A stretch of 64,000 nt of DNA from contig NZ_CP043627.1 of the NCBI RefSeq assembly GCF_016804325.1, forward strand, positions 1 through 64,000, in the 5' to 3' direction. The notes under the pieces were generated by a model that saw nothing but the letters and a program-made list of their open reading frames with translations, did no database searches and was not told the origin of the DNA. The position numbers and the translations under genes are program-made. Source of the stretch: Methylobacterium aquaticum (lineage in GTDB: Bacteria; Pseudomonadota; Alphaproteobacteria; Rhizobiales; Beijerinckiaceae). Below are positions 40,893 to 62,838 of the stretch, in pieces (position 1 is the first letter of the stretch; each line of letters opens with the position of its first letter).

Positions 40893-41110
40893 GAGCCTGT
40901 TTGATCGACTCACGCACTTACTCCCACGCACCACCTCATCCTGAGGTGTCAGTCGATTGAAAATCGACTGACCTCGAAGGAGGGCTCCAGGGATCGCGAA
41001 GATGTCTGGAGCCCTCCTTCGAGGCTCCTTTCAGTCGCACCTCAGGATGAGGTCGCGAGGGGGATGGAAAAAGTTCGTTGCAGGTAAATTTTCGCAAGTC
41101 AAACAGGATC
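40893..41110. mobile_element. MITE copy, 218 bp
   Basis: GAGCCTGTTTGA at the left and TCAAACAGGATC at the right bound a copy 218 bp long containing the CTCATCCTGAGGTG palindrome (40933-41054). The flanks are TAA on the left and TGA on the right, fitting the TNA target preference but not an exact duplication. It carries the intact junction CACTTACTCCC used to define the insertion at 3511. Confidence 0.8.
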
Positions 41111-41653
41111 TGAGAGACGGTTCTATCCCGGATCGGTCGGATGACGCATTTTCGACGATCGACCATCCGCTTCTCAAGACAATGACATATTATTTTTTCC
41201 ACATAATATTCTAGTATTCGTACCTATCGATCTGCATGCGGGTTCAAATATCTCGATGTCGTTTCGGGTTACGCTACGCATCATCGGGATGACATCGAGG
41301 ATTTCGATCCCGCCGGCCAACTCGCACAGTCTCTCGACGAGAATCTTCCCGGTCCGTCCTGCGCAGCGTGGGGGAAGGGTTGGCCTGCCGTGACCGGTGC
41401 TCCTGCCGTGTCGCCCCCTCTGCGGCAGCATGATCGGGCGCAAGCCGAGGGCTGGGTCGCCCCGTCGGCATGGTAGCCGGCACCGGCCCCGGCGAGAGGG
41501 CCTGTCCCGATCGGCACCTGCAGGCGGCGGTGATTGAACCAGCCGGCCTTCGGCCGCGACGGCCCGGGTCTCGCCGAGCCCGCTCTCACGATGCCTTAAC
41601 CATGCCGACCTACGCTTGCGGCCGCTCTCGCCTTCTCGCCCAAGGAGTGGTTC
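41111..41653. other. Gene-free, partly AT-rich region before the secretion cluster
   Basis: The first 150 bp (especially 41170-41280) are much richer in A and T than the surroundings, which suggests foreign or decayed sequence. A reverse-strand reading frame at about 41180-41360 (ERLCELAGGIEILDVIPMMR) looks faintly coding but has no start or family. The promoter of the adaptor operon is expected near 41590. Confidence 0.45.
41594..41607 (+). promoter_or_regulatory. Shared motif CCTTAACCATGCCG, first copy
   Basis: The 14-mer is identical to the one at 45998-46011, and similarity continues downstream (ACCTACGCTTGC against GCTCACGCTCGC). It lies 46 bp upstream of the adaptor start codon. TTAACCAT resembles a CtrA half-site known in alphaproteobacteria; a promoter or activator-site role is inferred. 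Confidence 0.5.
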
Positions 41654-42382
41654 GTGCGCGCGGCAACCGTCATCGTCCTCTCCCTGGCAGCCCTGCCCGC
41701 GCTCGCTCAACCCGAAGCTCCGATCCGCGGCGTCGTGCGCGCGGTCCGGGATGCCAGCGTCGCGACGGACCTCAACGCCCGCATCCTGACGCTGCCGTTC
41801 CGCGAGGGGACGTCGTTCAACGCCGGCGATACGCTCGTCACCTTCGACTGCGATCGGACCGAGGCGGAATCCCGCGCGGCCGAGGCCGAGACCACGGTCA
41901 ACCGCATCGCCTTCGACAACGCGCAAGCGCTCGACCGTCGCCACGCCATCGGGCGCATCGAGGTCCAGGCCGCCAAGGCGCGATGGGAGAAGGCCCGGGC
42001 CTCCGCGGAAGCCCTGCGCGTCAGGGTGCGCGATTGCCGGATCGTCGCGCCGTTCGCGGGCCGCGTCGCCGAGATGCGGGCGCGCGAATACGAGATGCCG
42101 GTGGCCGGCCAGCCGCTTCTCCGGATCGTCGATGCCACCGCCCTCGAGATCGACCTGATCGTGCCCTCGGCCTGGCTCGCCTGGCTGCGGGCCGCCGCTC
42201 CTCTCAACGTGAAGGTCGACGAGACCGGCAAGACCTATCCCGCCAAGGTGATCCGCACCGCGGCTGCCGTCGATCCGGTCTCCCAGACGATCAGGATCAC
42301 CGCGGCCTTCGCCCCCGGCGACACGTCGGCGGTGCTGCCCGGCATGAGCCTCGACGCCACCTTCGACCGTCCGACCCACTGA
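41654..42382 (+). CDS. Periplasmic HlyD-type adaptor protein
   Basis: The 242-residue protein is a compact membrane-fusion (adaptor) subunit. The signal peptide MRAATVIVLSLAALPALA precedes GVVRAVRDASVATDLNARILTLPFREGTSFNAGDTLVTFDC (lipoyl half), a short helical hairpin (TEAESRAAEAETTVNRIAFDNAQALDRR), and RDCRIVAPFAGRVAEMRAREYEMPVAGQPLLRIVD (second lipoyl half) with a beta-barrel. It starts with GTG, preceded by AAGGAG. It lacks a membrane anchor, so it is periplasmic, and probably bridges the inner-membrane proteins encoded next to the TolC-like channel. The next gene starts one base after its stop. Confidence 0.88.
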   Translation: MRAATVIVLSLAALPALAQPEAPIRGVVRAVRDASVATDLNARILTLPFREGTSFNAGDTLVTFDCDRTEAESRAAEAETTVNRIAFDNAQALDRRHAIGRIEVQAAKARWEKARASAEALRVRVRDCRIVAPFAGRVAEMRAREYEMPVAGQPLLRIVDATALEIDLIVPSAWLAWLRAAAPLNVKVDETGKTYPAKVIRTAAAVDPVSQTIRITAAFAPGDTSAVLPGMSLDATFDRPTH

Positions 42383-42383
42383 C

Positions 42384-43832
42384 ATGGCCGCCACCATGGC
42401 CGTGCCGCAGCCCAATCCCAAGCCTGACCCCAGTTCCAAGCCCGAGTCCGGGGGCCGCCGCGTCCACGTCCATCCCGCGGGCGGCACGGTTCCGCGGGGA
42501 CCGGAACCGGTCGGCGCTGAGGATGCGAGCGCCGGCTTGCGCCAGCTCCTCGCCGTCGAGGCGAGCTTCCGCCAGGCCCCGGACCGCGACGCGCTCGGCC
42601 TTGCCCTCGTCAACGAGAGCGTCACGCTGGTGCGGGCGCGCCAGGGCTTCCTCCTGCGGACGGATCGCCTCGGCGGTCTCACCGTCGAACGGGTGTCCGG
42701 CACGATCCAGGTCGAGCGGCACGCCCCCCTCCTCGCCTTCGTCGAAGCGGCCGTCGCCGCGATCCCCAGGGAGGCGCGCGCCGCACCCCGGAGCATCGAT
42801 CTCGCGACCTCGGAGGCCGAGGAAGCCCGGACCTATCCCTTCCGCCACGCCCTCTTCGTGCCCCTGCGCGATCGGTCGGGCGGCGTGGTCGGCGGCCTGC
42901 TGCTGACGCGCGAGCGGACCTTCGACGAGGCCGACGCGGCCCTGGCCTTGCGGCTTGGCCAGACCGGCGCCCATGCCCTCCTGGCGCTGCGCCCGCCGCT
43001 CCTGCCGCGCCTGTCGGGAAACCTGCGCAAGCCCGCCCTCGTGGCGGCCGGACTGGTCCTCGCCGGTCTCGCCTGTCCGGTCTCGATGACGGTGCTGGCC
43101 CCGGCGACGATCACGGCGGAGCGGCCCTTCGTGGTCGCGGCGCCGATCGAGGGCATCATCGAGGAGATCGTGCCGGCGCCGAACGCCGCCGTCGCCGCGG
43201 GCGACCTCGTCCTGCGCTACGTCGACACCGCCCAGCGCAACGCGCTCGCGGTGTCCGAGCGCGAGGTCCAGGTCGCCGATGCGCGCCTCCGGCAGGTGAC
43301 GGTGGGGGCCTATGCCGAGGAGCGGGTCCGGCGCGAGATCGGGCAGGCCCGCGCCGAGCTCGCCCTGAAGGTGGCCGAACGGGATTTCGCCCGCGAGACC
43401 TTCGCCCGGACGCAAGTTCGCGCCGAGCGCGCCGGCATCGCGGTCTATGCCGACCGCAAGGAGTGGTACGGCAAGCCCGTCGCCGCCGGGCAGCGCATCC
43501 TGGAGATCGCCGACCCGGGGAACGTGGAGATCCGCATCGACCTTCCGGTCTCCGACGCCATCGCGCTCGCTCCGGGCGGCCGGGTGCGGGTCTTCCTCGA
43601 TACCGATCCCCTCAACCCGGTGGAGGCGCAGATCGACCAGGTGACGCCGGTCGCGCGCTTGACCGAGGCCGGCGTGCTCGCCCACCGCATCGTCGCGAAG
43701 CTGCCGGCCGGCGCGCCGGCACCGCGGCTCGGCGCCCGCGGAACGGCGCAAGCCTACGGATCGACGGTGCCGTTCGGGTTCACGCTCCTGCGCAAGCCGC
43801 TCGCGTTCCTGCGCCAGAAGGTCGGCCTGTGA
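42384..43832 (+). CDS. GAF-domain HlyD membrane-fusion protein
   Basis: The 482-residue protein has a cytosolic N-terminal region with a GAF-like domain (about residues 50-195: LRQLLAVEASFRQAPDRDALGLALVNESVTLVRARQGFLLR, then ALFVPLRDRSGGVVGGLLLTRERTFDEADAALALRLG), one transmembrane helix (KPALVAAGLVLAGLACPVSMTVL, about 212-232) and a periplasmic HlyD part (TITAERPFVVAAPIEGIIEEIVPAPNAAVAAGDLVLRY, a helical hairpin, then a barrel). The attached GAF sensor is unusual and could tie export to a cytoplasmic ligand. It overlaps the next gene by four bases. Confidence 0.88.
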   Translation: MAATMAVPQPNPKPDPSSKPESGGRRVHVHPAGGTVPRGPEPVGAEDASAGLRQLLAVEASFRQAPDRDALGLALVNESVTLVRARQGFLLRTDRLGGLTVERVSGTIQVERHAPLLAFVEAAVAAIPREARAAPRSIDLATSEAEEARTYPFRHALFVPLRDRSGGVVGGLLLTRERTFDEADAALALRLGQTGAHALLALRPPLLPRLSGNLRKPALVAAGLVLAGLACPVSMTVLAPATITAERPFVVAAPIEGIIEEIVPAPNAAVAAGDLVLRYVDTAQRNALAVSEREVQVADARLRQVTVGAYAEERVRREIGQARAELALKVAERDFARETFARTQVRAERAGIAVYADRKEWYGKPVAAGQRILEIADPGNVEIRIDLPVSDAIALAPGGRVRVFLDTDPLNPVEAQIDQVTPVARLTEAGVLAHRIVAKLPAGAPAPRLGARGTAQAYGSTVPFGFTLLRKPLAFLRQKVGL

Positions 43833-45967
43833 CCCGCGGGGACCCGGCGGAGGGCCAGCCGCTCACGGCCCTGCGCGAGGATCTGCGGATCGAGCGCGGG
43901 GCGGTCCCGGGCGATGGCGGCCCGGCGCCCTGGCTCCTCTACGATCCCCTGGCGCACCGCTACTACGAGATCGACGAAACCGGCCTCGCCTTCCTCCAGG
44001 CCTGGCGGACCGGCCTCACGCCTGCGGATCTCGCCGACGCCGCCGGAGAGGCCCTCGGGCGGGCGGTCGGGCCGGACGAGGTCGCGGCGTTTCGCGGCTT
44101 CTGCGAGGCCAACGGGCTCGTCGCGCATCGCGGCGGCTGGCAGGCATTGGTGCGGCAGGCGGCGTCCCGCCGGCACGGGCTCGGCGCCTGGCTCCTGCAC
44201 AATTACCTGTTCATCCGCATTCCCCTGGTGCGGCCGCAAGGCTTCCTCGATCGCACCCTGCCCGTCGCCCGCTGCCTCGCCGACCGGCGCAGCCTGGCGG
44301 CCATCGCGCTCGCCGGGCTGCTCGGTCTCTACCTGGCGATGCAGCAATGGGACACGTTCCGGGCGACGTTCCTGGAGTTCTTCACGCCGGAAGGTCTGGT
44401 CTTCTATCTCGCCGCCCTCGTCGCCGTGAAGGCGCTGCACGAACTCGGCCACGCCTACACCGCCACCCATTACGGCTGCCGCGTCCCCAGCATGGGCGTC
44501 GCCCTCATGGTGCTGGTGCCGGTGCTCTACACCGACACCACCGATGCCTGGCGCCTGCGCGACCGCCGGCAGCGCATCGCCATCGACGGCGCCGGGGTCG
44601 CGGTGGAACTCGCCGTGGCGGCCCTCGCGACGCTGGCCTGGTCGTTCCTGCCGGACGGGACGGCGCGCTCCGTCGCCTTCTTCCTCGCCACGACCGGCTG
44701 GGTGATGAGCGTCGCGATCAACCTCAGCCCGCTGATGCGCTTCGACGGCTACTACATCGCCGCCGACCTGTTCGGCGTGTCGAACCTCCAGCCCCGCGCC
44801 TTCGCGCTCACCACCTGGGCGTTGCGCGAGATCCTGTTCGGGCTCGGCGATCCCTGCCCCGAGAGCTGGAGCCCGCGCCGGCGCTGGGGCGTGATCGCCT
44901 ACGGCGTGGCGGTCTGGATCTACCGGCTGGTGCTGTTCACCGGCATCGCCGTGATGGTCTACACCCTGGCCTTCAAGGTCCTCGGCCTGCTGCTCTTCGC
45001 CGTCGAGATCGGCGTGTTCGTCCTCCGGCCGATCGTTCGCGAGACGCTGTTCTGGTGGCGGAACCGCCGCCGCATCGCCCCGAATGGGCGCGTGCGCATC
45101 ACCGGGGCGGCGCTTGCCGTCGTTCTGCTGCTGCTCGTCCTGCCGGTCTCGGGCCGGGTCGAGATCCCGGCCATCGCCGAGCCGGAGCGGACCGAGCGCC
45201 TCACGGCCGTGGCCGCCTCCCGGATCGAGACCGTGGAGGTCGCGCCGGGCGAGTCCGTCAGCGCCGGACAGGTTCTGATGCGGCTGCGCTCGCCGGCCCT
45301 CGACCACGATCTGGAGGCCGCGCGCATCCGCCTCGCCCTCGTCGAGATGAAGCAGGATCGCCGCGCCGCCGATCCGCAGGACCGGGCCGGCGGCCTCGTC
45401 CTCGACGGCGAGGGGAACGCGCGGCGCGAGGCCGTTCGCGGACTGGAGCGGCGCCACGACGAACTGGTGATCCGCGCCGCCTTCGACGGCATCGTCGCCG
45501 AGATCGAACCGGACCTGCATCCCGGCCGCTTCGTCGGCAGGGGCGAGGAACTCGGGACCCTCGTCTCGAACGGACGCCGCCAGGTGCGCGGCCTCGTGCC
45601 GGAGGACGCCATGGCGCGGCTCTATCCCGGCGCCTCCGGCACCTTCGTGCCGGACGATCTCACCACCGGCTCGATCCCGGTCACCGTCACCTCGGTGTCC
45701 GCCGCCGCGGTCGCCGTCGTGGAGATCCCTTCGCTGCTCTCGACCCTGGGTGGTCCGGTCGCCGTGCGCGAGGAGAAGGGCGTCGGTCCGGTGCCGGTCG
45801 AGGCCCAGTACACGGTGGTGCTGAACCGGCCCGACGACGAGTTGCGCCTGTCCGGCACACCCGCCGTGGTGCGCGGCCTCGTCACGGTCTCCGGCCGTCG
45901 CGAGAGCACCGCCGCCCACGCGTTTCGGCGGATCGCCGCCGTTCTCGTCCGCGAGAGCGGCTTCTGA
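43829..45967 (+). CDS. PqqD-like / M50 site-2 protease / HlyD fusion protein
   Basis: The 712-residue inner-membrane protein begins with a PqqD-like segment (residues 20-100: PWLLYDPLAHRYYEIDETGLAFLQAW). A membrane domain follows with the zinc motif HELGH (204-208) in VKALHELGHAYTATHYG and the second M50 motif NLSPLMRFDGYYIAADLF (aspartate 306). The C-terminal third is HlyD-like (IETVEVAPGESVSAGQVLMRLRSPALDHDL, a hairpin, IRAAFDGIVAEIEPDLHPGRF, then a barrel). Intact catalytic residues imply a working intramembrane protease, perhaps processing the exported protein. PqqD domains bind peptides, so the N-terminus may recognise the cargo. The GTG start overlaps the previous stop. Confidence 0.9.
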   Translation: MTRGDPAEGQPLTALREDLRIERGAVPGDGGPAPWLLYDPLAHRYYEIDETGLAFLQAWRTGLTPADLADAAGEALGRAVGPDEVAAFRGFCEANGLVAHRGGWQALVRQAASRRHGLGAWLLHNYLFIRIPLVRPQGFLDRTLPVARCLADRRSLAAIALAGLLGLYLAMQQWDTFRATFLEFFTPEGLVFYLAALVAVKALHELGHAYTATHYGCRVPSMGVALMVLVPVLYTDTTDAWRLRDRRQRIAIDGAGVAVELAVAALATLAWSFLPDGTARSVAFFLATTGWVMSVAINLSPLMRFDGYYIAADLFGVSNLQPRAFALTTWALREILFGLGDPCPESWSPRRRWGVIAYGVAVWIYRLVLFTGIAVMVYTLAFKVLGLLLFAVEIGVFVLRPIVRETLFWWRNRRRIAPNGRVRITGAALAVVLLLLVLPVSGRVEIPAIAEPERTERLTAVAASRIETVEVAPGESVSAGQVLMRLRSPALDHDLEAARIRLALVEMKQDRRAADPQDRAGGLVLDGEGNARREAVRGLERRHDELVIRAAFDGIVAEIEPDLHPGRFVGRGEELGTLVSNGRRQVRGLVPEDAMARLYPGASGTFVPDDLTTGSIPVTVTSVSAAAVAVVEIPSLLSTLGGPVAVREEKGVGPVPVEAQYTVVLNRPDDELRLSGTPAVVRGLVTVSGRRESTAAHAFRRIAAVLVRESGF

Positions 45968-45997
45968 ACGCCGACAAGGGTGGCTTGCCCCACTCTT

Positions 45998-46011
45998 CCT
46001 TAACCATGCCG
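45998..46011 (+). promoter_or_regulatory. Shared motif CCTTAACCATGCCG, second copy
   Basis: This is identical to the motif at 41594-41607 and lies in the short gap between the protease-fusion gene and the giant gene, 28 or 61 bp before its two possible start codons. It suggests that the giant gene has its own promoter under the same control as the adaptor operon. Confidence 0.5.
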
Positions 46012-46072
46012 GCTCACGCTCGCCCGCGCGGAACGCGCCATGCGGTCCCGTCGCGAGCTTAGAGCGGTGTCG

Positions 46073-49000
46073 ATGTTCGAACGTTTCCGGAGCAAGACAC
46101 GGGGCTTGAGCGAGACGCGTGTCCTGAGCAAGACACGGGCCGGCTCGGAGCCGCGGGTCGCGACGGGCGCGCCGACGAGTCCGGCGATCCGCGCGCTGGA
46201 ACCCCGCTTCGTCTTCGACGGGGCGGCTGCACCGGCCGCCGCGCAATCGCACGGCGATCCGGCTCGTGACGACCCGGCCCACGGCGACCGTGCCTCCGGC
46301 GACGAGGCGGGGCGGCACGCCGAACCGGCCGAGGCCCGCGCCGCCGCGCCGGTGGGGGCGCCGCTGCACGAGACCGCCACCGCGAGCGGCCGGCACGAGA
46401 TCGTCGTGATCGACGAGGGGGCGGCCGACGTGGCGACCCTGATCGCCGGCGTGCCGTCCTCGGCCGAGATCATCCTGATCGATCCCGCCCGCGACGGCTT
46501 CGATCAGCTCGCCGAGGCGCTCGAGGGACGCAGCGGCATCGATGCCATCCACATCCTGTCGCACGGCTCGGCCGGCGACCTGCGCCTGGGCACGGGAGAC
46601 CTGACGGCCGAGACGATCCGGGGCCGCTACGCCGCCGACCTCGCCGTGATCGGCAAGGCGCTCACCGCAACCGGCGACCTCATGATCTATGGCTGCGACT
46701 TCGCCGCGGGCGAAGCCGGTGCCCGCGCGGTCGCGCTGCTCGCCTCCGCCACCGGCGCCGACATCGCCGCCTCGGACGATGCCACCGGCGCGGCCGAGCT
46801 CGGCGGCGACTGGACCCTCGAGACGCATCGGGGCGCCATCGAGACCGGCATCGTCGTCGACGCGGCGGCGCAGGCCGACTGGCATCATCTCCTGGCGGCC
46901 GCGGATAACGGCCGCGGCGCCCTGCTCGCAGTCTCGAACCACGGGATCTACAGCGTCGACATCGCGTCCGGAAAGGCGACGGAACTCACCCAGGCTCCCG
47001 GCAGCGTCGGCGGGATCACGCTGGGTGCGTCCCTCAACTCGCTCGCCGTCGACCAGGCGAACGGGCTGATCTACTACGTCGACAACGCCAGCCCGAACGC
47101 CGCCACCAGGAATGCGCTGTTCGCCTACGACTTCCGGAACGATCGGCACATCCTGATCGACGCCGATCTCTCGACCCACGGCGTCACGACCGGCAGCCAG
47201 GGCCTGGGCGGGGCCGGCGCCGCCTTCGCGAACGGCACCCTCTACCTCGCCGTCGAGAACGTCTCCGGCACCACCGACCAGATCTACAGGCTGACCTTCA
47301 CCGGGTCGGGCCGCACCGTGGCATCGGGCGCGACCTTCGGCAGCCAGGCGAACCACGAGTACGACTGGGGCGACATCGGGATCGACCAGGCCGGCGGACA
47401 GCTCGTCAGCCTGACCCGGGGCTCCTTCGCCCGGTTCAGCCTCGGCGACGGGAGGGAGGTGCTCTTCGACAATTCGGTGACCCGAACCGACGTCCAGACC
47501 GGCGTCGATTCCGGCGGCTTCATCTACACCCTCGGGACGAACATCACCCGGCTCGATCCCACCTCCGGTGCCGCAATCGGCAGCGGCAAGGCCATCACCA
47601 CGGACGGCTCGACCCCGCTCGGCACCATCAACGACGCGGCCTCCTGGACACCGCCGACCTCGACCATCGGCGGGCGGGTGTTCGGCGACGCGAACGCCAA
47701 CGGGACCTCCGACAGCGGCGAGGCGGGCCTGCGCGGCGTGACGGTCCAGCTCGTCGACGACGTCAACGGCAACGGGCGGGTCGATGCCGGGGAGCGCGTC
47801 CTGGCCACCGACACGTCCGCGGCCGATGGCAGCTACAGCTTCACCGGGCTCCTCCCCGGTCAGTTCGTCGTGCGCGTGACCGACACTGAGGGCCGCCTCA
47901 CCACGGCCACGGCGACGACGCCGACCTCGGGCGCCCTCGCCGACACCAAGGTCGGCGCGACGCTGGCCGGCCCGGATTTCGGCTACAATCCCGCCCTCGT
48001 GCTCGACCTCGACGCGTCGGCCGCGGGAACCGGCTACGCCACGCGCTACACCGAGCGGGCGCCGGGCGTCGCCATCGTCGACGCCGACGTGTCGATCCTC
48101 TCCGCCGCCGGCACTACCCTCACCGCGGCCAGGGCCGTCATCGCCAACGGCACCGGCGCGGAGACCCTGCGCATCGTCGGGACGCTGCCGGCGGGCCTCG
48201 GCGCGAGCTACGATCCGGCGACCTCCACGCTGACGCTGACCGGATCGGCGAGCCTCGCCGACTACCAGGCCGCCCTCCAGCAAATCCGCTACGCCTCCAC
48301 CGGGCCGGTTCCCTCGCCGGCCGAGCGCAGCATCGCCGTCACGGTGAGCGACGGCACCGTCGATTCCGCCGTCGCCACGGCGACCGTCACCGTCGTCGCG
48401 GCGAACGCTCCCCCGGTCAACACCCTTCCGGCCAGCCAGGGAGCCACCGAGGATACCGACCTCGTCTTCTCGGCGGCGACGGGCAACGCGGTTCGGGTCG
48501 ATGATCGGGACGGCGGGCCGCTCACCGTCACCCTCTCGGCGGATCAGGGGCTGTTGAGCCTGTCCCGCCTCACCGGCCTGACCTTCGCGGCGGGCGACGG
48601 CGCGAACGACGCCGCCATGACGTTCACGGGGTCGATCGCCGACATCGACGCCGCGCTCGACGGCCTGCGTTTCGCCCCCAGGGCGGATTACAACGGCAGC
48701 GCGCGGATCTCCCTCGTGACGCGGGATCCCGTCCGGCCCGCCGACACCTTCACCAACGGCTCGTTCGAGGATCCGGCGATCGGCGGCGGCTACGCGATCG
48801 TCCCGGAATCGTCGGTTCCGGGCTGGAAGACGGATGCCACCGACCACCAGATCGAGATCTGGCGCTCCGGCTACGGCGGCGTGCCGGCCTATGACGGCAA
48901 CCAGTTCGCCGAGATCAACGCCAACCAGGTCGCGGCGCTCTACCAGACGTTCGACGCGACGGCCGGGTCGACGCTCAGCTTCGACTTCGCCCATCGTGGC

Positions 49001-55000: not shown

Positions 55001-58000
55001 GCCGCCCTCGACGGCACGACCTATCGCCCGGCGGCCGACCATGACGGCCCCGATGCCCTCACGATCGTCACCACCGACAACGGCAATACCGGCGCGGGCG
55101 GGCCGAAGAGCGACATCGACGTCCTCGCGCTGACGGTCTCCCCCGTGAACGACGCCCCGCGCGCCGGGACGCTTCCGGCCATCATCGGCTTCGACGGGGA
55201 CCGCGTCGCCGGGTTGGATCTCGGCCGCACGTTCTCCGACGTCGAGGGCGACAGGCTGACCTTCGGCGTCTCCGGCCTGCCGGCCGGTCTCACCGTCGAC
55301 AGCGCCACCGGCATCGTCCGCGGCGCGATCGACCGCTCCGCGTCGCGGGGCGGCACGAACGGCGAGTACGCCGTCACGGTCACGGCCGAGGACGGCCACG
55401 GCGGTGCGACGCGCCGCAGCTTCACGTGGCGGGTGGTCGATCCGGCGCCGATCGCGCGGAACGACGACGTGCCCACCGACGCGCGCACGCCCATCCGCGG
55501 CTCCGTGCTCGCCGATAACGGCCACGGGGCCGACAGCGATCCAGACGGCGACCCCCTCACGGTCGTCGCCGTCGGCGGGTCGGCCGCCGGAATCGGGTGG
55601 GCGGTGGCGGGCTCGGAGGGCGGCCGTTTCACGGTGCTCGCCGACGGGAGCTACCGGTTCGACCCGGGCGCGGATTTCGACGATCTCCCGGCGGGCCGGA
55701 CCCGCGCGACGCAGATCGCCTACACGATCGACGATGGCGACGGCGGCAGCGCGACGGCGATCCTCACCGTGACGGTCACGGGCCTCGTCCGGGCTCCGGC
55801 CCCCGGCCTGCTGGGCGACCGTAGCGCCAGCGACGGCGAGGCGGTGGTCCTGCCCTATGGCGGCAGTCCCGACGGCCCGGCCGCGCGCTACGGCGCCACC
55901 GGCCTGCCGCCGGGCCTCGCCATCGATCCGGCGACGGGCACCATCCAGGGCACGATCGACCGTGCTGCCTCCGGCGCCACGGGCCTCACCGACTACCGGG
56001 TCGTGGTCACGGCGACCGGTCCGGGCGGCGCGCAGACCGAAACGCGCTTCACCCTCCGGGTCACCAACCCCGCCCCGCAGGCGAGGGACGACAGCGCGAC
56101 CACGGCCAAGGACAGGCCGGTCGTGGTCGATGTCCTGGCCAACGACCGGGATCCCGACGGGGACCCCCTCGCGATCGTCGCGACGGGCGCGGCCGCGCCG
56201 CGGGCCGGGCACGGCCGGGTCGCGGTCGCGGACGGCGCGCTCGTCTACACGCCGGATGCGGATTTCAACGGCACGGATACGATCACCTACGCCATCGCCG
56301 ACGGGAATGGCGGAACCGGCACCGCCTCGGTCACGGTGACGGTCACCCCCGTCAACGATGGGCCGAGCGCCGACATCCTGCCGGACCAGGCCGGCCGCGG
56401 CGGCGCGGCCGTGATCCACGACATCGCCACGCACTTCCATGATCCCGACGCGGACCGATCGACCGCCGCGATCCCGGGCGAGGGGCTGCGCTTCACCGCA
56501 ACGGGACTGCCGCCGGGCCTGTCCCTCGACCCGGCGACCGGGCTGATCACCGGCCGTCTGCCGGTCGAACCCGCGGCGACCATCGATTTCACCGTGACCG
56601 TCACGGCGACGGATGCGGAGGGCGCGAGCATCGCCCGCAGCTTCACCTGGACGGTGACCGAGCCGGTTCCGACGGCCGGACCGGACGATGCCGCCACCCG
56701 CGCCGGCACCCCTGTCTCCGTCGCGGTCACGGCGAACGATTCCGACCCCGACGGCCCCGTCCGCCTCGTCGACGCACCCGGTGCGACGCATGCCGCTCAC
56801 GGCACCGTCTCGGTCGATCCCGCGACGGGGCGTCTCACCTACGTGCCGGATGACGGATTTTCCGGGACGGACACCGTCGCCTACACCATCGAGAACCAGC
56901 AGGGCGGGCGCGCGACCGGTCTCCTGACCGTCGCGGTCTCGCCCGTGAACCGTCCGCCAGTCGCGCCCGACACCCTTTCGGGCGCCGAGGCGGCCGATGG
57001 CGAGAGCGTGCGCCTGCCGCTCGGACTCCTCTTCGTCGATCCCGAGGGAGCACGCCTCGCCTATACCGCGACCGGCCTGCCGCCGGGTCTGGCGATCGAT
57101 CCGGCGACGGGCGAGATCGCCGGGACGATTCGCCACGACGCCTCGGGTCCGACCGGGCACGCCACCTACATGGTGACGCTCACCGCCACCGACGGGTCAG
57201 GCCTCGCGGTCTCGCGGACGCTCGCCTGGGCGATCACGAACCCTGCGCCGTCGGCCGCGGACGACGTGATCACGACCGACGAGGACCGGCCGGTCGACAT
57301 CGACGTGACCGGCAACGATCACGATCCCGACGGCGATCCGCTCGCGGTGGTCGCCGGCTCGGTGACGGCCCGGCACGGCACGGTCGCGATCAACCCGGAC
57401 GGCAGCCTGCGCTACACGCCCGATCCGGATTTCAACGGCGCCGACACGATCGTCTACACGATCACCGACGGCAATGGCGGCTTTGCCACGGCCTCGGTCG
57501 CGGTCGCGGTCAACCCGGTCGACGATGCGCCCGTGGTCGATAGCGCCTCGCCGATCATCGCCGACCGGTCGGACAGCGATGCCGCGCGGGTGTCGATCCC
57601 GGCGGGACACGCCTTTTCCGATGTGGACGAGGGCGACGTGCTGACGTTCACCGCGACCGGCCTGCCGCCCGGGCTGGCGATCGATCCGGCCACCGGCGAG
57701 ATCGCCGGGACGATTCGCCACGACGCCTCGGGCCCGACCGGGCGCACCACCTACGCGGTGACGCTCACCGCCACCGACGGGTCAGGCCTCGCGGTCTCGC
57801 GGACGCTCGCCTGGGCGATCGCGAACCCTGCGCCGTCGGCCGCGGACGACGTGATCACGACCGACGAGGACCGGCCGGTCGACATCGACGTGACCGGCAA
57901 CGACCACGATCCCGACGGCGATCCGCTCGCGGTGGTCGCCGGCTCGGTGACGGCCCGGCACGGCACGGTCGCGATCAACCCGGACGGCAGCCTGCGCTAC

Positions 58001-60121
58001 ACGCCCGACCCGGATTTCAACGGCGCCGACACGATCGTCTACACGATCACCGACGGCAATGGCGGCTTCGCCACGGCCACGGTCGCGGTCGGGGTGAACC
58101 CGGTCGACGATGCGCCCGTGGTCGATAGCACCTCGCCGATCATCGCCGACCGGTCGGACAGCGATGCCGCGCGGGTGTCGATCCCGGCGGGACACGCCTT
58201 TGGCGACGTGGACGAGGGCGACGTGCTGACGTTCTCGGCGACCGGCCTGCCGCCGGGTCTGGCGATCGATCCGGTGACCGGCGAGATCGCCGGCACCCTC
58301 GCGTCCGACGCGTCGACCCGGGTGCCGGGCGGCGTCTACGCGGTCACGCTCACCGGCACCGATTCCGCCGGCGCCTCCGCAACAGCGCGCTTCACCATCA
58401 CGGTGGGGAATCCGGCCCCGATCGCCCGCGACGACCTGGCGGCCCTCGACGAGGACGGCCTTCTCGAAGGTCGCGTGCTCGACAACGACGCCGATCCCGA
58501 CGGCGACGCCATGCGGGTCGATCCGATGCCCGTCGCCGGTCCGCTGCACGGACGGCTCGACCTGCGGGCGGACGGCACCTTCACCTACAGGCCGGAGGCC
58601 GGGTTCCACGGCGAGGATTCCTTCGCCTACGCGGTCGTCGATTCCGATGGCGGCCGCTCGACGGCCATGGTCCGCCTCACGGTCGCGTCCATCGACACCC
58701 TGCCCGAGGACACCACACCCGAGGACACCCCACCCAAGGCAACGGCGGCTCCGGTGACGACCCGCGAGGACACGCCCGTCGACGGCCGCATCATCGTGGA
58801 CGATCCGGGCGACGCCCCCCCGACCTTCGCGGTCGAGATGGCGCCGGCCTCCGGCCAGGTCACGCTGCGTCCCGACGGCGGCTTCACCTATACCCCCGCC
58901 ACGGATTTCCACGGCGCCGACGGCTTCACCGTGCGGGTCTCCACCGAAACCGGCGGCTCCACCCTGGTCCCGGTCGCGGCGACCATCGTGGCGGTCAACG
59001 ACGCCCCGGACGCCCATGCCGACGCTCTGGCGATCTCGGCTGGCGAGGTCGGCCGGGGGCGGGTCGTGGCGACGGATCCCGACGGCGATCCCCTGGACTT
59101 CCGCCTCCAGGCCGGCCCGGCGAATGGGACGGTCGTGCTGGCCGAGGACGGATCCTATGCCTACACCCCCGCAACCGGCTTCAGCGGCCGCGACAGCTTC
59201 ACGGTCGAGGTCGGCGACGGCAGCGGCGGGGTCGCGCGTGCCACCGTGGCCGTCACGGTCGCGGCGAAGCCGGTTCTCGTGCCGCCCCCCGGGGCCTCCG
59301 CCCCGCTTCCCGGCGCCCGGCTCCTTCTCGACGCTCCGGCGATGCCGCCGGCTCCGGCCCATGACACCGGGATCGTCGCCGACGGCTTCGTCCTGCAGGC
59401 CGTCGCCGCGATCGACCCGCTCGGCTCCGTCGGACAGGCGATCCTGGCGAAGGGAGCGATCGTCGCCGCGGTCAACGGCGTCGACGACCTGCATGGGACG
59501 GCGATCGACATCGACCGTCCGGTGGTGCTCGACGCGGGCGACCGGATCGGGCGGCTCGCCTGGGAACGGTTCGAACGCCAGCCGGACGGTCGCGCACCCT
59601 GGTTCTCGGCGAGCCCCTATCTCGGCCGCTCCCTCGGCCTCACCCTGTCGACGGACGAGACCGTCACGGGCCGGGGCGACCTCACGATCGAGGCGATCCG
59701 CCGGCCCGACACCCTGGTCATCAACCTGCGCAACCGGACGCCCGACGACGCCTCGGTGGGGAACGTCCGGCTCCTCGGGCCGGACGGCGCGCCGGTGCCG
59801 GCCTGGATCGAGGGAGATGGCAGGGGCAGCTTCTGGGGGCGTCCCCCGGCCGGAACCCGTCTCGTCGCCGTCGAGGTGGAGATCGCGCTCCGGGATGGCC
59901 GCGTCGTGCGCTGGCCGATGACCGTCGACGTGGAGACGGGCGAGATCCGTGCGACCGCGCCCGCGCGCCCGGGCGCCGGTCGCCCGCCTGCCGAATCACC
60001 CGGGATCGGGCTGCGCGGCGAGGCGCCGATGTTCACGGCCCGGCTCGCATCCCTGGAGCGGGACGGGCATCCCGATCTCACGCTGATCGAGACGGCACTC
60101 CGGCGAGGAGCCGGATTTTGA
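46073..60121 (+). CDS. Giant DUF4347/cadherin-like repeat protein (about 4,680 residues)
   Basis: A single frame encodes about 4,682 residues (4,693 if the ATG at 46040 is used). The order is: a basic leader without Sec signal; the motif ALEPRFVFDGAA (about residue 42), a LEPR-type element typical of giant surface proteins; a DUF4347 domain (about 108-270, with IDAIHILSHGSAGDLRLG and LMIYGCDFAAGEAG); a repeat-propeller-like region to about 530; an SdrD B-like calcium domain (GGRVFGDANANGTSDSGEAGLRGV, 530-640); then dozens of VCBS/cadherin/tandem-95 and He-PIG-type modules marked by VNDAPV, EDTPLVFSA, GTLTYTPDADFAGTDRFTYTV and GLPPGLAIDPATG. The last 280 residues are a non-repetitive domain. 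It is presumably an exported surface adhesin, handled by the neighbouring protease/HlyD/TolC proteins. A calcium-binding or adhesive role is inference. Confidence 0.92.
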   Translation: MFERFRSKTRGLSETRVLSKTRAGSEPRVATGAPTSPAIRALEPRFVFDGAAAPAAAQSHGDPARDDPAHGDRASGDEAGRHAEPAEARAAAPVGAPLHETATASGRHEIVVIDEGAADVATLIAGVPSSAEIILIDPARDGFDQLAEALEGRSGIDAIHILSHGSAGDLRLGTGDLTAETIRGRYAADLAVIGKALTATGDLMIYGCDFAAGEAGARAVALLASATGADIAASDDATGAAELGGDWTLETHRGAIETGIVVDAAAQADWHHLLAAADNGRGALLAVSNHGIYSVDIASGKATELTQAPGSVGGITLGASLNSLAVDQANGLIYYVDNASPNAATRNALFAYDFRNDRHILIDADLSTHGVTTGSQGLGGAGAAFANGTLYLAVENVSGTTDQIYRLTFTGSGRTVASGATFGSQANHEYDWGDIGIDQAGGQLVSLTRGSFARFSLGDGREVLFDNSVTRTDVQTGVDSGGFIYTLGTNITRLDPTSGAAIGSGKAITTDGSTPLGTINDAASWTPPTSTIGGRVFGDANANGTSDSGEAGLRGVTVQLVDDVNGNGRVDAGERVLATDTSAADGSYSFTGLLPGQFVVRVTDTEGRLTTATATTPTSGALADTKVGATLAGPDFGYNPALVLDLDASAAGTGYATRYTERAPGVAIVDADVSILSAAGTTLTAARAVIANGTGAETLRIVGTLPAGLGASYDPATSTLTLTGSASLADYQAALQQIRYASTGPVPSPAERSIAVTVSDGTVDSAVATATVTVVAANAPPVNTLPASQGATEDTDLVFSAATGNAVRVDDRDGGPLTVTLSADQGLLSLSRLTGLTFAAGDGANDAAMTFTGSIADIDAALDGLRFAPRADYNGSARISLVTRDPVRPADTFTNGSFEDPAIGGGYAIVPESSVPGWKTDATDHQIEIWRSGYGGVPAYDGNQFAEINANQVAALYQTFDATAGSTLSFDFAHRGRAGVDTMQVKVTDLGADGVAGTADDSTLFDKTYSDGNTAWGAYGETIAGTASGNTLRFEFRSIGAAGGSQSVGNFIDGIRIRQGFVTASALDVTIAPVADIVPDAVATNENTAITVNAVTGTNGAAADNFEDVTRAVTAVTQGAHGSVAFQPDGTLTYTPDANFAGTDRFTYTVAAGGTTETAAVTVTVRPVNRAPILDLDASAPGTGFRTSYGVGGPAIAIVETGVAVTDVDNAQMVSARAVITNPQAGDGLTFVGTPPAGIVATYDPATSTLTLTGAASKADYQAALQQIRYASTGSAPSTADRTIAVTVNDGTVDSAVATATVTVVPANAPPVNTLPVSQTLAEDTSLVLSAGNGNAVTVSDPDAGTGALTTTLGVAHGTLTLGSRTGVTVTNDGTGAVTLTGTAAAINAALDGTTYRPAADYNGPETLTIVTTDNGNTGAGGPRSDTDTLSIAVTAVNDAPTNTVPAAMQVVTEDTPLIFSARGGNAVSVADVDGGTLTVALSSSEGRLTLSGTAGLTFLQGTGTGDRAMRVSGSIAAINAALDGLRFDPAADRNGPAQIALVTVDPAGATAASTIAVTVLPVADIVPDAVATNEDTAITFNAVTGTNGASADTFADGTRAVTAVSQGAHGSVAFQPDGTLTYTPDADFAGTDRFTYTVTAGGTTETATVTVTVRPINDAPVLDLSATHGYATRYTEGGPGVAIVGTGMSVTDVDSATLASATAVITNGQAGDALSVEGGLPAGLVARFDPATFTLTLTGAATTADYQTALGRVRFSSSERDPSTLTRSIAVSVSDGALRSAVVTATVEVAAVNDAPVNGLPEAQATAEDTPLVFSAATGNAVTVSDPDARDGRVTTTLGVLHGTLTLGSRTGVTVTNDGTGAVTLTGTIAAINAALDGTTYRPAADYNGPETLTIVTTDNGNTGAGGPKSDADTLAIAVNPVNDAPTNTVPAAMQVVNEDTPLIFSARGGNAVSVADVDGGTLTVALSSAEGQLTLSRTAGLTFLQGTGTGDRAVRVSGSAAAINAALDGLRFDPAADRNGPAQIALVTVDPAGAMAASTIAVTIAPVADIVPDAVATNEDTAITFNAVTGTNGASADTFADGTRAVTAISQGAHGSVAFQPDGTLTYTPDADFAGTDRFTYTVTAGGTTETATVTVTVRPVNDAPVLDLSDTHGYATRYTEGAPGVAIVGTGMSVTDIDSATLASATAVITNGQAGDALSVEGGLPAGLVARFDPATFTLTLTGAATTADYQTALGRVRFSSSERDPSTLTRSIAVSVSDGALRSAVATATVEVAAVNDAPVNGLPGAQATAEDTPLVFSAATGNAVTVSDPDARDGRVTTTLGVLHGTLTLGSRTGVTVMNDGTGAVTLTGTIAAINAALDGTIYRPAADYNGPETLTIVTTDNGNTGAGGPESDTDTLAIAVAAVNDAPVNGVPGPQSVDEDTGLVFSPRTGNAIIVADVDAGSGAVTVLLHVRHGTLTPGGTANVTVTGAGTGSVSLSGTLAAVNAALDGTTYRADADYAGSDILTMATTDNGNTGAGGPRSDTDTIAIAVNPVNDAPTNTVPAATQAVNEDTPLIFSARGGNAVSVADVDGGTLTVALSSAEGRLTLSGTAGLTFLQGTGTGDRAVRVSGSVAAINAALDGLRFDPAADRNGPAQIALVTVDPAGATAASTIAVTVLPVADIVPDAVATNEDTAITFNAVTGTNGASADTFADGTRAVTAVSQGAHGSVAFQPDGTLTYTPDADFAGTDRFTYTVTAGGTTETATVTVTVRPVNDAPVLDLSDTHGYATRYTEGAPGVAIVGTGMSVTDIDSATLASATAVITNGQAGDALSVEGGLPAGLVARFDPATFTLTLTGAATTADYQTALGRVRFSSSERDPSTLTRSIAVSVSDGALRSAVATATVEVAAVNDAPVNGLPGAQATAEDTPLVFSAATGNAVTVSDPDARDGRVTTTLGVLHGTLTLGSRTGVTVMNDGTGAVTLTGTIAAINAALDGTTYRPAADHDGPDALTIVTTDNGNTGAGGPKSDIDVLALTVSPVNDAPRAGTLPAIIGFDGDRVAGLDLGRTFSDVEGDRLTFGVSGLPAGLTVDSATGIVRGAIDRSASRGGTNGEYAVTVTAEDGHGGATRRSFTWRVVDPAPIARNDDVPTDARTPIRGSVLADNGHGADSDPDGDPLTVVAVGGSAAGIGWAVAGSEGGRFTVLADGSYRFDPGADFDDLPAGRTRATQIAYTIDDGDGGSATAILTVTVTGLVRAPAPGLLGDRSASDGEAVVLPYGGSPDGPAARYGATGLPPGLAIDPATGTIQGTIDRAASGATGLTDYRVVVTATGPGGAQTETRFTLRVTNPAPQARDDSATTAKDRPVVVDVLANDRDPDGDPLAIVATGAAAPRAGHGRVAVADGALVYTPDADFNGTDTITYAIADGNGGTGTASVTVTVTPVNDGPSADILPDQAGRGGAAVIHDIATHFHDPDADRSTAAIPGEGLRFTATGLPPGLSLDPATGLITGRLPVEPAATIDFTVTVTATDAEGASIARSFTWTVTEPVPTAGPDDAATRAGTPVSVAVTANDSDPDGPVRLVDAPGATHAAHGTVSVDPATGRLTYVPDDGFSGTDTVAYTIENQQGGRATGLLTVAVSPVNRPPVAPDTLSGAEAADGESVRLPLGLLFVDPEGARLAYTATGLPPGLAIDPATGEIAGTIRHDASGPTGHATYMVTLTATDGSGLAVSRTLAWAITNPAPSAADDVITTDEDRPVDIDVTGNDHDPDGDPLAVVAGSVTARHGTVAINPDGSLRYTPDPDFNGADTIVYTITDGNGGFATASVAVAVNPVDDAPVVDSASPIIADRSDSDAARVSIPAGHAFSDVDEGDVLTFTATGLPPGLAIDPATGEIAGTIRHDASGPTGRTTYAVTLTATDGSGLAVSRTLAWAIANPAPSAADDVITTDEDRPVDIDVTGNDHDPDGDPLAVVAGSVTARHGTVAINPDGSLRYTPDPDFNGADTIVYTITDGNGGFATATVAVGVNPVDDAPVVDSTSPIIADRSDSDAARVSIPAGHAFGDVDEGDVLTFSATGLPPGLAIDPVTGEIAGTLASDASTRVPGGVYAVTLTGTDSAGASATARFTITVGNPAPIARDDLAALDEDGLLEGRVLDNDADPDGDAMRVDPMPVAGPLHGRLDLRADGTFTYRPEAGFHGEDSFAYAVVDSDGGRSTAMVRLTVASIDTLPEDTTPEDTPPKATAAPVTTREDTPVDGRIIVDDPGDAPPTFAVEMAPASGQVTLRPDGGFTYTPATDFHGADGFTVRVSTETGGSTLVPVAATIVAVNDAPDAHADALAISAGEVGRGRVVATDPDGDPLDFRLQAGPANGTVVLAEDGSYAYTPATGFSGRDSFTVEVGDGSGGVARATVAVTVAAKPVLVPPPGASAPLPGARLLLDAPAMPPAPAHDTGIVADGFVLQAVAAIDPLGSVGQAILAKGAIVAAVNGVDDLHGTAIDIDRPVVLDAGDRIGRLAWERFERQPDGRAPWFSASPYLGRSLGLTLSTDETVTGRGDLTIEAIRRPDTLVINLRNRTPDDASVGNVRLLGPDGAPVPAWIEGDGRGSFWGRPPAGTRLVAVEVEIALRDGRVVRWPMTVDVETGEIRATAPARPGAGRPPAESPGIGLRGEAPMFTARLASLERDGHPDLTLIETALRRGAGF
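50030..55140 (+). repeat. Kilobase-scale tandem repeats inside the giant gene
   Basis: A 1,458-bp unit (486 codons) recurs three times: positions near 50281 match 51739, and these match 53587 after an extra 390-bp module (about 53290-53690) that makes the second spacing 1,848 bp. Copies two and three appear identical by eye for about 820 bp (about 52345-53170 against 54193-55018), which implies very recent duplication or gene conversion. Confidence 0.9.
57060..58230 (+). repeat. 585-bp direct repeat in the giant gene
   Basis: A unit containing CTCGCCTGGGCGATC (57221 and 57806) and coding for GLPPGLAIDPATGEIAGTIR then ITTDEDRPVDIDVTGNDHDP is present twice with only scattered substitutions, 195 codons apart. 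Confidence 0.88.
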
Positions 60122-60128
60122 CGATTCG

Positions 60129-60140
60129 TTTACCATGCGG
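60129..60140 (+). promoter_or_regulatory. Related motif TTTACCATGCGG, third copy
   Basis: It differs from TTAACCATGCCG at two positions. It lies 8 bp after the giant gene's stop codon and about 80 bp before the TolC-like gene, so this gene may share the control of the upstream units. Confidence 0.4.
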
Positions 60141-60219
60141 AACGAAACAGTAGGGAGACGCGAGAGCGGTCTCCCGGGGCTTCCCGAGTGCGCTTGAGCC
60201 CGGAGGGGAAGCGGGAACC

Positions 60220-61827
60220 ATGGCGCAGGTTGGGCCGGGCAGCCGGAGGGGCAGACGCCGGATCGGCGCCGTGTTGGTCGGAGCCACGCTTCTGGCCACG
60301 GCGATGGTCGGCTGCACGGTGAAGCCCCAGCCGCTCGGGCCGGCTGAACTCGGTGCCTACGCGGCGGACAAGCTGCGCCGCGTCGGGTCCGACCAGCCTT
60401 TGCCGGGACCGCGCATCGATCTCTACGAGGCCTTCGCCCGCGCCCTGAAGTACAATCTCGATCAGCGCGTCGAGATCATGCAGACGGCGGTGCGCGCGCG
60501 CGAGCTGAGCTTCGCCAGCTATTCCATGCTGCCGAACTTCGTCGCCAACAGCGCCTATGCCGGGCGCGACAGCTACGCCGCCAGCTCCTCGATCTCGGTG
60601 CTGAGCCAGCGCCAGTCGCTGGAGCCATCCTACAGCCAGGACAAGAACTTCGTCTTCGGCGACTTGTCCTTGAGCTGGAACATCCTCGATTTCGGCTTGT
60701 CGTACGTGCGCGCGCGGCAGGCCGCCGATGCCGTCCTCATCGCCGAGGAGAGCCGCCGCCGGGTGGTGAGCCGCATCATCGAGGACGTGCGGACCGCCTA
60801 TTGGCGCGCGCTCACGAGCGAGCGGCTCGCGAGCCGCCTGCGCGCCCTCGAGGGGCGCGCTCAGACGGCGATCGGCGACGCCCGCCGGCTCTACGCCGAG
60901 CGCCAGACCTCGCCGCTCACGGCGCTGACCTACGAGCGCGAGCTGATCGAGATCCGGCGCGAGGCCCAGCGCGTCGAAGCCGACCTCCTGGTCGCCCGCA
61001 GCCAGCTCGCCTCGCTGATGAACCTTCCGCCCGACCTGCCGTTCCGCCTCGCCGAGATGGAGGGGGTCGAGGCCGGCCTGAAGATCGGGGTCCCCGATTC
61101 CGACCTCGTCCGCGTCGCCCTGGAGAACCGGTCGGAACTCCGCGAGGTCGCCTACCGCCAGCGCATCAACGGGCGGGAGGCGACCGCCGCCCTGCTCGAA
61201 TTGCTGCCCGGCTTCAACGTCATCGTCGGCGGGAACGCCGATTCGAACCGCCTGCTCTACAATGCGAGCTGGGTCGGCTGGGGCGCCCGCGCGAGCTGGA
61301 ACCTCATGAACGTGTTCCGCTACCCCGAGCGGACCGGCCTCATCGACGCGCAGGACGCGCTCCTCGACAAGCGGGCGCTCGCCGTCACCATGGCGGTGAT
61401 GACCCAGGTCCATGTCAGCCGGATCCGCCACGCGCTCGCCATGCGGGAATACGAGACGGCTGCCGCGTTCCGCCGCGTCCAGCGCCGCATCGTGGGGCAG
61501 ATGCGCGCCTCCGCCGCCGCACTCTCGACGAGCGAGCAGACCCTGATCCGCGAGGAGATGAACACCCTGATCGCCGAGGTGAAGTTCGACCTCGCCCATG
61601 CGGCCGTCCAGAACGCCCGCGCCAACGTGTTCGCCTCCCTCGGCCTCGACTCCTTCCCGCTGGCGACCATCGATGGCCAGGACCTTCAAGGCCTGACGCA
61701 GACCGTGCGGACGAGCTGGCTCGGGATCGGCGCCGTCCTCGCCGACGCCCCTCCGATCCCGCAGGTTCCTCCGATCCCGCAGGTCTCGCGCCCGCCCGCC
61801 GCCCTGCCCCTCGGATTGAGGCGCTGA
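60220..61827 (+). CDS. TolC-family outer-membrane lipoprotein
   Basis: The 535-residue outer-membrane efflux protein has a lipoprotein signal (IGAVLVGATLLATAMVGC; lipobox ending at Cys32). Two TolC halves follow: ARALKYNLDQRVEIMQTAVRARELSFASYSMLPNFVANSAYAGR, FGDLSLSWNILDFGLSYVRARQAADAVLIAEE and RTAYWRALTSERLASRLRALEGRAQTAIGDARRLYAERQTSPLTALTYERELIEIRREAQRVEADLLVARSQLASLMNL; the second half includes WVGWGARASWNLMNVFRYPER. The C-terminus carries a proline-rich IPQVPPIPQV direct repeat. It should form the exit channel for the adaptor proteins encoded upstream. A good ribosome-binding site (GGAGGGGAAGCGGGAACC) precedes the ATG. Confidence 0.92.
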   Translation: MAQVGPGSRRGRRRIGAVLVGATLLATAMVGCTVKPQPLGPAELGAYAADKLRRVGSDQPLPGPRIDLYEAFARALKYNLDQRVEIMQTAVRARELSFASYSMLPNFVANSAYAGRDSYAASSSISVLSQRQSLEPSYSQDKNFVFGDLSLSWNILDFGLSYVRARQAADAVLIAEESRRRVVSRIIEDVRTAYWRALTSERLASRLRALEGRAQTAIGDARRLYAERQTSPLTALTYERELIEIRREAQRVEADLLVARSQLASLMNLPPDLPFRLAEMEGVEAGLKIGVPDSDLVRVALENRSELREVAYRQRINGREATAALLELLPGFNVIVGGNADSNRLLYNASWVGWGARASWNLMNVFRYPERTGLIDAQDALLDKRALAVTMAVMTQVHVSRIRHALAMREYETAAAFRRVQRRIVGQMRASAAALSTSEQTLIREEMNTLIAEVKFDLAHAAVQNARANVFASLGLDSFPLATIDGQDLQGLTQTVRTSWLGIGAVLADAPPIPQVPPIPQVSRPPAALPLGLRR

Positions 61828-62124: not shown

Positions 62125-62838
62125 ATGCGTCCCTCGAAGCGCGCCCCCGACGAGCTGCGCAAGGTCACGCTGGAGCGGGGCGTCTCGCGCTACGCCGAGG
62201 GCTCCTGCCTCGTCACCTTCGGGGAGACCAAGGTGCTGTGCACCGCCTCGCTGGAGGAGCGCGGGCCGTCCTGGCTGCGCGGCTCCGGCAAGGGCTGGAT
62301 CACCGCCGAGTACAGCATGCTGCCGCGTGCCACCCACGACCGCAACCGGCGCGAGGTCAATGCCGGCAAGCCGTCCGGGCGCACCCAGGAGATCCAGCGC
62401 CTGATCGGCCGGTCCCTGCGCGCCGTGGTGAACCTGCCGGCGGTGGGCGAGCGCCAGATCGTGGTCGATTGCGACGTGCTCCAGGCCGATGGCGGCACCC
62501 GCACGGCGGCGATCACCGGCGCCTGGGTGGCGTTGCACGAGTGCTTCACCTGGATGCGCGGCCGCTCGATCATCTCGGTCGATCCGATGCGCGACCACGT
62601 CGCGGCGATCTCCTGCGGCATTCACAAGGGCACGCCCGTGCTCGACCTCGACTACGCCGAGGATTCCGGCGCCGAGACCGATGCCAACTTCGTCATCACC
62701 GGCTCGGGCGGCATCGTCGAGGTGCAGGGCACGGCCGAGGTGAAGCCGTTCTCCGAGGAGGAGTTCCTGAGCCTCCTGCGGCTGGCCAAGACCGGCACCG
62801 CCGCCCTGGTGGCGCTCCAGAAGCAGGCGATCGCCTGA
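62125..62838 (+). CDS. rph: Ribonuclease PH
   Basis: The 237-residue phosphorolytic exoribonuclease trims tRNA 3' ends. It starts [20 protein letters not shown] and contains [79 protein letters not shown] and [19 protein letters not shown]. The ATG at 62125 has AGGAG before it. The stop overlaps the rdgB start by one base. The 297 bp upstream (61828-62124) hold no other gene. Confidence 0.97.

Follow-up and report, generated by a model that had tools for sequence, protein, structure and literature searches.

A conserved cassette around a site-2 protease-HlyD fusion as a candidate export and processing machine for tagged giant repeat proteins

The 64,000-nucleotide window analysed here (Methylobacterium aquaticum, assembly GCF_016804325.1, contig NZ_CP043627.1, positions 1-64,000 of the forward strand) contains a cassette of five consecutive same-strand genes, which encode a periplasmic adaptor, a GAF-HlyD protein, a fusion of an M50 site-2 protease (S2P) with an HlyD part (S2P-HlyD), a giant repeat protein and a TolC-type lipoprotein. 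We propose that the cassette is a dedicated machine, independent of ATP-binding cassette (ABC) transporters, for the export and processing of giant repeat proteins with an N-terminal LExR tag. From sequence comparison we give this reading a probability of roughly 60%. There is good support for an export system that is dedicated to the giant and has no ABC ATPase. At the level of gene neighbourhoods, the comparison of loci demonstrated a conserved linkage of adaptor, GAF-HlyD, S2P-HlyD and TolC genes to a tagged giant in the clade of the window outside SAR11.

Conservation of the cassette

In a scan that covered a single genome from each species, an alignment of 24 homologues confirmed at least 581 relatives. 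Loci were compared for the best 80 of these, which span Alphaproteobacteria including SAR11, Gammaproteobacteria, a Nitrosospira metagenome-assembled genome and Nitrospirota. Recurrence of the cassette in these groups rules out chance linkage. A separate open reading frame (ORF) with best match to the GAF-HlyD protein of the window was found in 77 of the 80 loci, an adaptor-type ORF in 68, a TolC-type ORF in 57 and a cargo signature (tag, DUF4347 or C-terminal domain) likewise in 57. Six loci (five from Azospirillum, and L070) displayed no cargo signature and had another ORF of more than 1,200 aa adjoining the cassette, while in 14 the neighbourhood was cut by contig ends. The position of the giant was variable, either upstream or downstream of the cassette and sometimes on the opposite strand. 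Label-free clustering of 832 neighbouring ORFs recovered an HlyD-type set in 78 loci, giants in 53 and TolC in 50. This unsupervised clustering revealed no further widely shared neighbour in the 80 loci, the next family being present in 10 and ABC proteins in 7.

The initial annotation of the window had suggested a search for co-occurrence and gene order, and had named an S2P-HlyD fusion regularly occurring without a giant as an argument against its view. A giant was lacking in only 3 of the 80 loci, and this argument fails. Among 289 sampled alphaproteobacterial genomes, 13 carried the fusion, 23 DUF4347 and 10 both, so that DUF4347 was present in 10/13 fusion genomes versus 13/276 genomes without fusion (Fisher p = 3e-10). 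In two of the three fusion genomes without DUF4347 (G147 and G109), an ORF with the C-terminal domain of the cargo lies on the same contig; the contig of the third, G050, is 5 kb long. Another genome of the genus Methylobacterium (G283) contained neither fusion nor DUF4347.

Four Rhizobiales-type loci (L035, L039, L042 and L056), and in part L040 and L063, share a conserved gene run with an AAA ATPase after the protease gene (L035:12315-21706). This ATPase was considered as a general motor and rejected, since it is restricted to its group of six loci.

Domain composition of the export proteins

Domains were assigned with Pfam and NCBIfam models and their cut-offs. All five annotated genes were confirmed on the + strand, apart from the start of the adaptor gene, which had been placed at 41594. 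This start is impossible because of an in-frame TAA at 41597; the gene extends over 41654..42382 and encodes 242 aa from a GTG codon. In agreement with its description as an HlyD adaptor with signal peptide, the product has a signal-peptide-like N-terminus and exceeded the cut-offs of RND_mfp (104.7 bits, cut-off 94.9) and HlyD_3. HlyD_3 was also above its cut-off in the GAF-HlyD protein (42384..43832; 482 aa, one predicted membrane segment at about residues 219-237) and in the S2P-HlyD fusion. The GAF half of the former name is weak by sequence, as GAF_2 reached 21.3 bits with a cut-off of 28.6, and the sensor that the initial annotation saw in it is hypothetical.

The S2P-HlyD gene (43829..45967; 712 aa, GTG start) overlaps the stop codon of the GAF-HlyD gene. 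Its product consists of an N-domain (residues 10-100, approximately), the M50 intramembrane protease with HELGH and NxxPxxxxDGY motifs, and a C-terminal HlyD part. Both motifs are intact (HELGH and NLSPLMRFDGY) and Peptidase_M50 scored 28.7 bits (cut-off 27.2), which places the protein among the site-2 proteases as annotated. Moreover, HExxH was found in 130/130 relatives and, by pattern, NxxPxxxxDG in 126/130. A PqqD-like segment had also been described. Pfam PqqD gave no match in the window protein and matched only 2 of 23 related N-domains, weakly (best E 0.015), and the resemblance is weak by sequence. The predicted model of the N-domain nevertheless has three strands followed by three helices, as is the case in PqqD. 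The VIA comparison with the whole S2P model returned rows for the HlyD part only; the missing PqqD and M50 rows exclude nothing. The TolC-type outer-membrane channel (60220..61827; 535 aa) was confirmed as a lipoprotein-like OEP member by a score of 76 bits and its N-terminal AMVGC.

The tagged giant proteins

The giant gene (46040..60121, + strand) encodes 4,693 aa from the first ATG, slightly more than the approximately 4,680 residues given before; a later ATG at residue 12 is a possible alternative start. The annotated LEPR motif, DUF4347 domain and cadherin-like repeats were all present, the latter as cadherin/Big matches. The protein has a single cysteine and no core of repeats-in-toxin (RTX) type. 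Its tag, LEPRFVFDGAA, lies at residues 53-63 (46196..46228). DUF4347 (46400..46894; 175 bits) follows, with His175 and the sole cysteine, Cys219. The C-terminal domain (59504..60091, residues 4489-4684) is common to other cargo (38 ORFs, iterated profile).

The extended form of the tag in the cargo, the caspase-like fold of DUF4347 and the SecA-like motor of the sister clade described below were absent from the initial annotation and are new here. The pattern LExR..(F/L/M)D(A)(G/A/S).. was found in 40 of 988 ORFs longer than 300 aa from 89 stretches, and each of the 40 is a giant or an ORF truncated at the end of its stretch. In 43 aligned tagged cases, D was present in 40 (S in three), A occupied +9 in 40, and position +13 was T in 32. 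The cases were picked by a pattern that demanded L, E and R or K and restricted later positions, so the constancy is partly due to selection. Near the tag, local hydrophobicity peaked at a median of 1.2 in the 43 cases, less than in typical signal peptides, and no signal-peptide-like hydrophobic stretch was seen near the tag in the giant and tagged ORFs.

The cargo of fusion genomes also differed in RTX content. RTX cores were lacking in 42/46 tagged ORFs, with five cores in L047. Among 18 DUF4347 ORFs whose genomes have no fusion (L195 and L199, not recovered by the profile, were excluded), none carried the tag and nine carried 8-34 RTX cores, whereas the two ORFs of fusion genomes tested alongside were tagged and free of RTX cores.

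DUF4347 has a caspase/CHAT-like fold with the His-Gly and Cys located after strands, as in clan CD. The alignment displayed the histidine in 23 of 29 rows and the cysteine in 26 of 29; in 34 of 43 tagged ORFs, no cysteine occurs besides that of YGC. Within the cargo, DUF4347 is a candidate caspase-fold peptidase. Downstream giants from Nitrospirales/Nitrospira (L058, L074, L080) and the sister-clade giant L241:14340-18068 have a membrane-like segment at their end and, after it, DPLP(V/I) in place of the C-terminal domain of the other cargo.

A sister clade with a SecA-like ATPase

The fusion was found in 57 of 369 gammaproteobacterial genomes, 17 with the higher-scoring and 40 with the lower-scoring type (split at 460 bits). 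Ten loci of the lower type were inspected: seven contained a SecA-like ORF of 655-762 aa beside the S2P gene, nine an ORF of more than 1,100 aa and four a match to DUF4347. In one locus, L235, a TolC match was accompanied by a tagged ORF of 843 aa. Genome-wide, SecA-like ORFs were counted from 60 bits upwards, which excluded weaker matches in frames of about 700 aa, and two partial matches on two contigs of G537 were taken for one split housekeeping gene. A second SecA-like ORF was present in 23/40 lower-type genomes, in 20 of them less than 5 kb from the S2P gene. It was found in only 1/17 higher-type genomes (G740, beside an extra lower-type copy) and 2/37 fusion-free genomes (frames of 1,050 aa, and of 2,938 and 4,001 aa), with p values of 6e-7 and 3e-4 in the comparisons among these classes.

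Seven of the SecA-like proteins were analysed; the Walker A pattern was present in six and DEAD in all. Their alignment to SecA of G758 stops at about residue 650 of 904, and the C-terminal third of SecA, with wing, two-helix finger and tail, is therefore missing from them. In a tree of 113 of the 130 S2P-HlyD sequences (duplicates and short sequences dropped, L235 not displayed), calculated by a quick method and with long branches, a fully supported branch separated SecA-linked from TolC-linked rows. Sister-clade cargo contains LEPRLLLSAD (L236 and L238) or a similar motif (L241). A three-sequence SecA profile revealed no SecA paralogue near clade-A loci (E 1e-5), and housekeeping SecA is single in the genome of the window, which has no second SecA, as well as in the SAR11 genome G346.

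Methylobacterium brachythecii and M. haplocladii possess both a window-type cassette and, elsewhere in the genome, the sister type with a SecA-like gene (L244:5305-12226 and L243:11118-15667). Two intermediate gammaproteobacterial loci (L235:5894-10479 and L232:6357-10469) encode short tagged ORFs (843 and 1,371 aa; LEQRVVLDAAA and LEKRIVLDGAA) and have TolC matches; both the YGC motif and SecA are missing.

ABC transporters and alternative explanations

If the giant used ordinary type 1 secretion, export would be powered by an ABC transporter from another part of the genome, and the cassette would contribute adaptors, channel and a maturation protease. The HlyD and TolC parts are indeed of the tripartite kind. 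As annotated, the window contains no ABC_membrane domain, but the caveat that an ABC partner might be encoded elsewhere applies: the remaining M. aquaticum genome encodes 14 ABC_membrane proteins, and among seven that were classified one is of HlyB type and one is just below that cut-off. The genome of the window alone could thus not decide, and the argument for ABC independence comes from its relatives. An ABC partner adjoining the cassette was rejected as sporadic only, with generic ABC matches in 7 of the 80 neighbourhoods. Thirteen cassette-bearing SAR11 genomes, some of them incomplete, gave 0-2 ABC_membrane matches each. The SAR11 genome G346, which also contains the cassette, is a single contig of 1,308,759 bp. 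Its giant ORF (7,341 aa) ends immediately ahead of three ORFs of 240, 445 and 712 aa, and the 712-aa product has HELGH; in G363, two giants are arranged in tandem at the cassette. The sole ABC_membrane protein of G346 matched MsbA best (518 bits, cut-off 602) and reached only 310 bits with the best type 1 secretion system (T1SS) model (cut-off 726). Among the other ABC ATPase frames of G346 that exceed the family cut-off, none is longer than 373 aa except one of 965 aa taken for UvrA. By its predicted proteins, this one-contig genome bears the cassette without a T1SS-type ABC transporter. Together with the absence of an RTX core from the window giant and most tagged ORFs, these findings make export by type 1 secretion improbable.

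Alternatively, the general Sec system might move the giant to the periplasm in a first step, leaving only the outer-membrane step and trimming to the cassette. This would fit the housekeeping SecA of M. aquaticum and of G346 and the SecA-like genes of the sister clade, whereas the lack of a signal-peptide-like stretch near the tag and the missing C-terminal third of the SecA-like proteins argue against it. We consider such a two-step route unlikely. S2P enzymes are known as regulatory proteases, and S2P-HlyD might serve in signalling or quality control of the giant instead of forming part of a conduit; the membrane-like, possibly cleavable end of nitrospiral giants would suit this role. However, the protease is itself fused to an HlyD part and accompanied by a second HlyD protein and mostly by adaptor and TolC, and no other widely shared export gene was found nearby, which renders a purely regulatory function very improbable.

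Several observations weigh against a dedicated ABC-independent machine. The HlyB-type ABC proteins are encoded in the very genome of the window, and the clade of the window lacks a motor gene of its own. TolC was not seen nearby in most SAR11 loci, and the fusion occurred in only 3/118 genomes of the SAR11 family sample and is thus uncommon there. Three loci (L063, L079 and L084) are without cargo despite at least 4.4 kb on each side. In the sister clade, no short SecA was found in 17/40 lower-type genomes, many of which are fragmented. Furthermore, some nitrospiral DUF4347 copies lack the histidine, and YGC is missing from 4/43 tagged ORFs.

Genomic surroundings

The flanks of the cassette are ordinary-looking, with a short-chain dehydrogenase (39733-40650) and a Ham1-type pyrophosphatase (62238-63470). 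Between the dehydrogenase ORF and the cassette, nested inverted repeats with arms of 20-27 nt and 80-92% complementarity (40922-41064) resemble a repetitive palindromic element. An open frame of 4,468 aa on the minus strand (43754-57160), antisense to the giant gene, is probably a by-product of high G+C. Long upstream minus-strand ORFs (717, 534, 510 and 601 aa) gave no Pfam match up to E 0.001.

Proposed mechanism

Overall, the view of the initial annotation was partly supported. In the mechanism that we favour, S2P-HlyD would use its N-domain to bind the tag on the cytoplasmic side, and a SecA-type motor would drive the chain of the giant across the inner membrane. This motor would be the dedicated short SecA in the sister clade and perhaps housekeeping SecA in the clade of the window. 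The S2P part may cut off the tag or a membrane-held segment, while the HlyD modules, adaptor and TolC would guide the chain over periplasm and outer membrane. Finally, DUF4347, as a candidate caspase-fold peptidase inside the cargo, might process the giant itself.

A further-reaching idea is put forward tentatively and appears doubtful at present: the cassettes might represent a new class of trans-envelope secretion. In the sister clade, a SecA-derived motor devoid of the C-terminal third, including the SecY-inserting finger, would act on S2P-HlyD and not on SecYEG. The clade of the window would use the same machine although it has no dedicated motor gene. The cargo would be LExR-tagged giants with a built-in caspase-like protease, including the 7,341-aa ORF of a SAR11 strain.

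If the proposed machine is correct, Gram-negative bacteria would possess a widespread secretion route for giant surface proteins that does without ABC transporter and classical signal peptide. Three features that have lacked an explanation would together gain a role: DUF4347, the LEPR-type motif at the N-terminus and the very large protein that some SAR11 strains encode. The parts missing from the SecA-like motors are those reaching into SecY, and with such natural motors it becomes testable what they can push through. In line with the former statement that no named system has this composition, no description of one was found in the open-access literature searched (preprints excluded, few subscription journals). 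Passages of two articles only mention a DUF4347 protein (PMC8262886, PMC12322963), and those of a third have no bearing on this system (PMC4257694).

Comparison with known systems

Giant adhesins of the LapA/BapA type are exported by type 1 secretion via HlyB-HlyD-TolC. The cassette resembles these systems in its HlyD-type adaptors and TolC-type channel, and in that a giant repeat protein without classical signal peptide adjoins the export genes. In contrast, it encodes no ABC transporter, and G346 has nothing beyond an MsbA-like protein; the giant of the window carries an N-terminal tag and no RTX repeats, and an intramembrane protease stands in the place of the ABC transporter.

Accessory SecA2 systems serve serine-rich repeat adhesins of Gram-positive bacteria. 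The sister clade is reminiscent of them in that a gene for a giant repeat protein adjoins one for a second SecA-like ATPase. However, these ATPases stay far below the SecA2 cut-offs (TIGR03714: 487 of 930 for L241, 463 for L233 and 362 for L242) and are without the C-terminal third, their partners are HlyD-type proteins, and the genome of the window has no second SecA.

Among named families, LEPR-XLL (NF012209, LEPR-8K; cut-off 17 bits) includes by score the sister-clade cargo L238 and L241 and the clade-A cargo L060, with L134 just below at 16.1. The first 500 aa of the window giant gave no match up to E 0.01, and the model as listed has no export role attached. The best named match of the M50 part was NF041824 daptide_HExxH, an M50 protein of a ribosomal peptide pathway (168 bits, residues 97-394). 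This is below the cut-off of 300, and here the M50 domain is fused to HlyD and linked to giants. The nearest known counterparts of DUF4347 are clan CD cysteine peptidases, CHAT domains and the type VI secretion system effector Tce1 (9qpe). Unlike these, DUF4347 is a peptidase candidate only and forms the N-terminal domain of a giant that is predicted to be exported.

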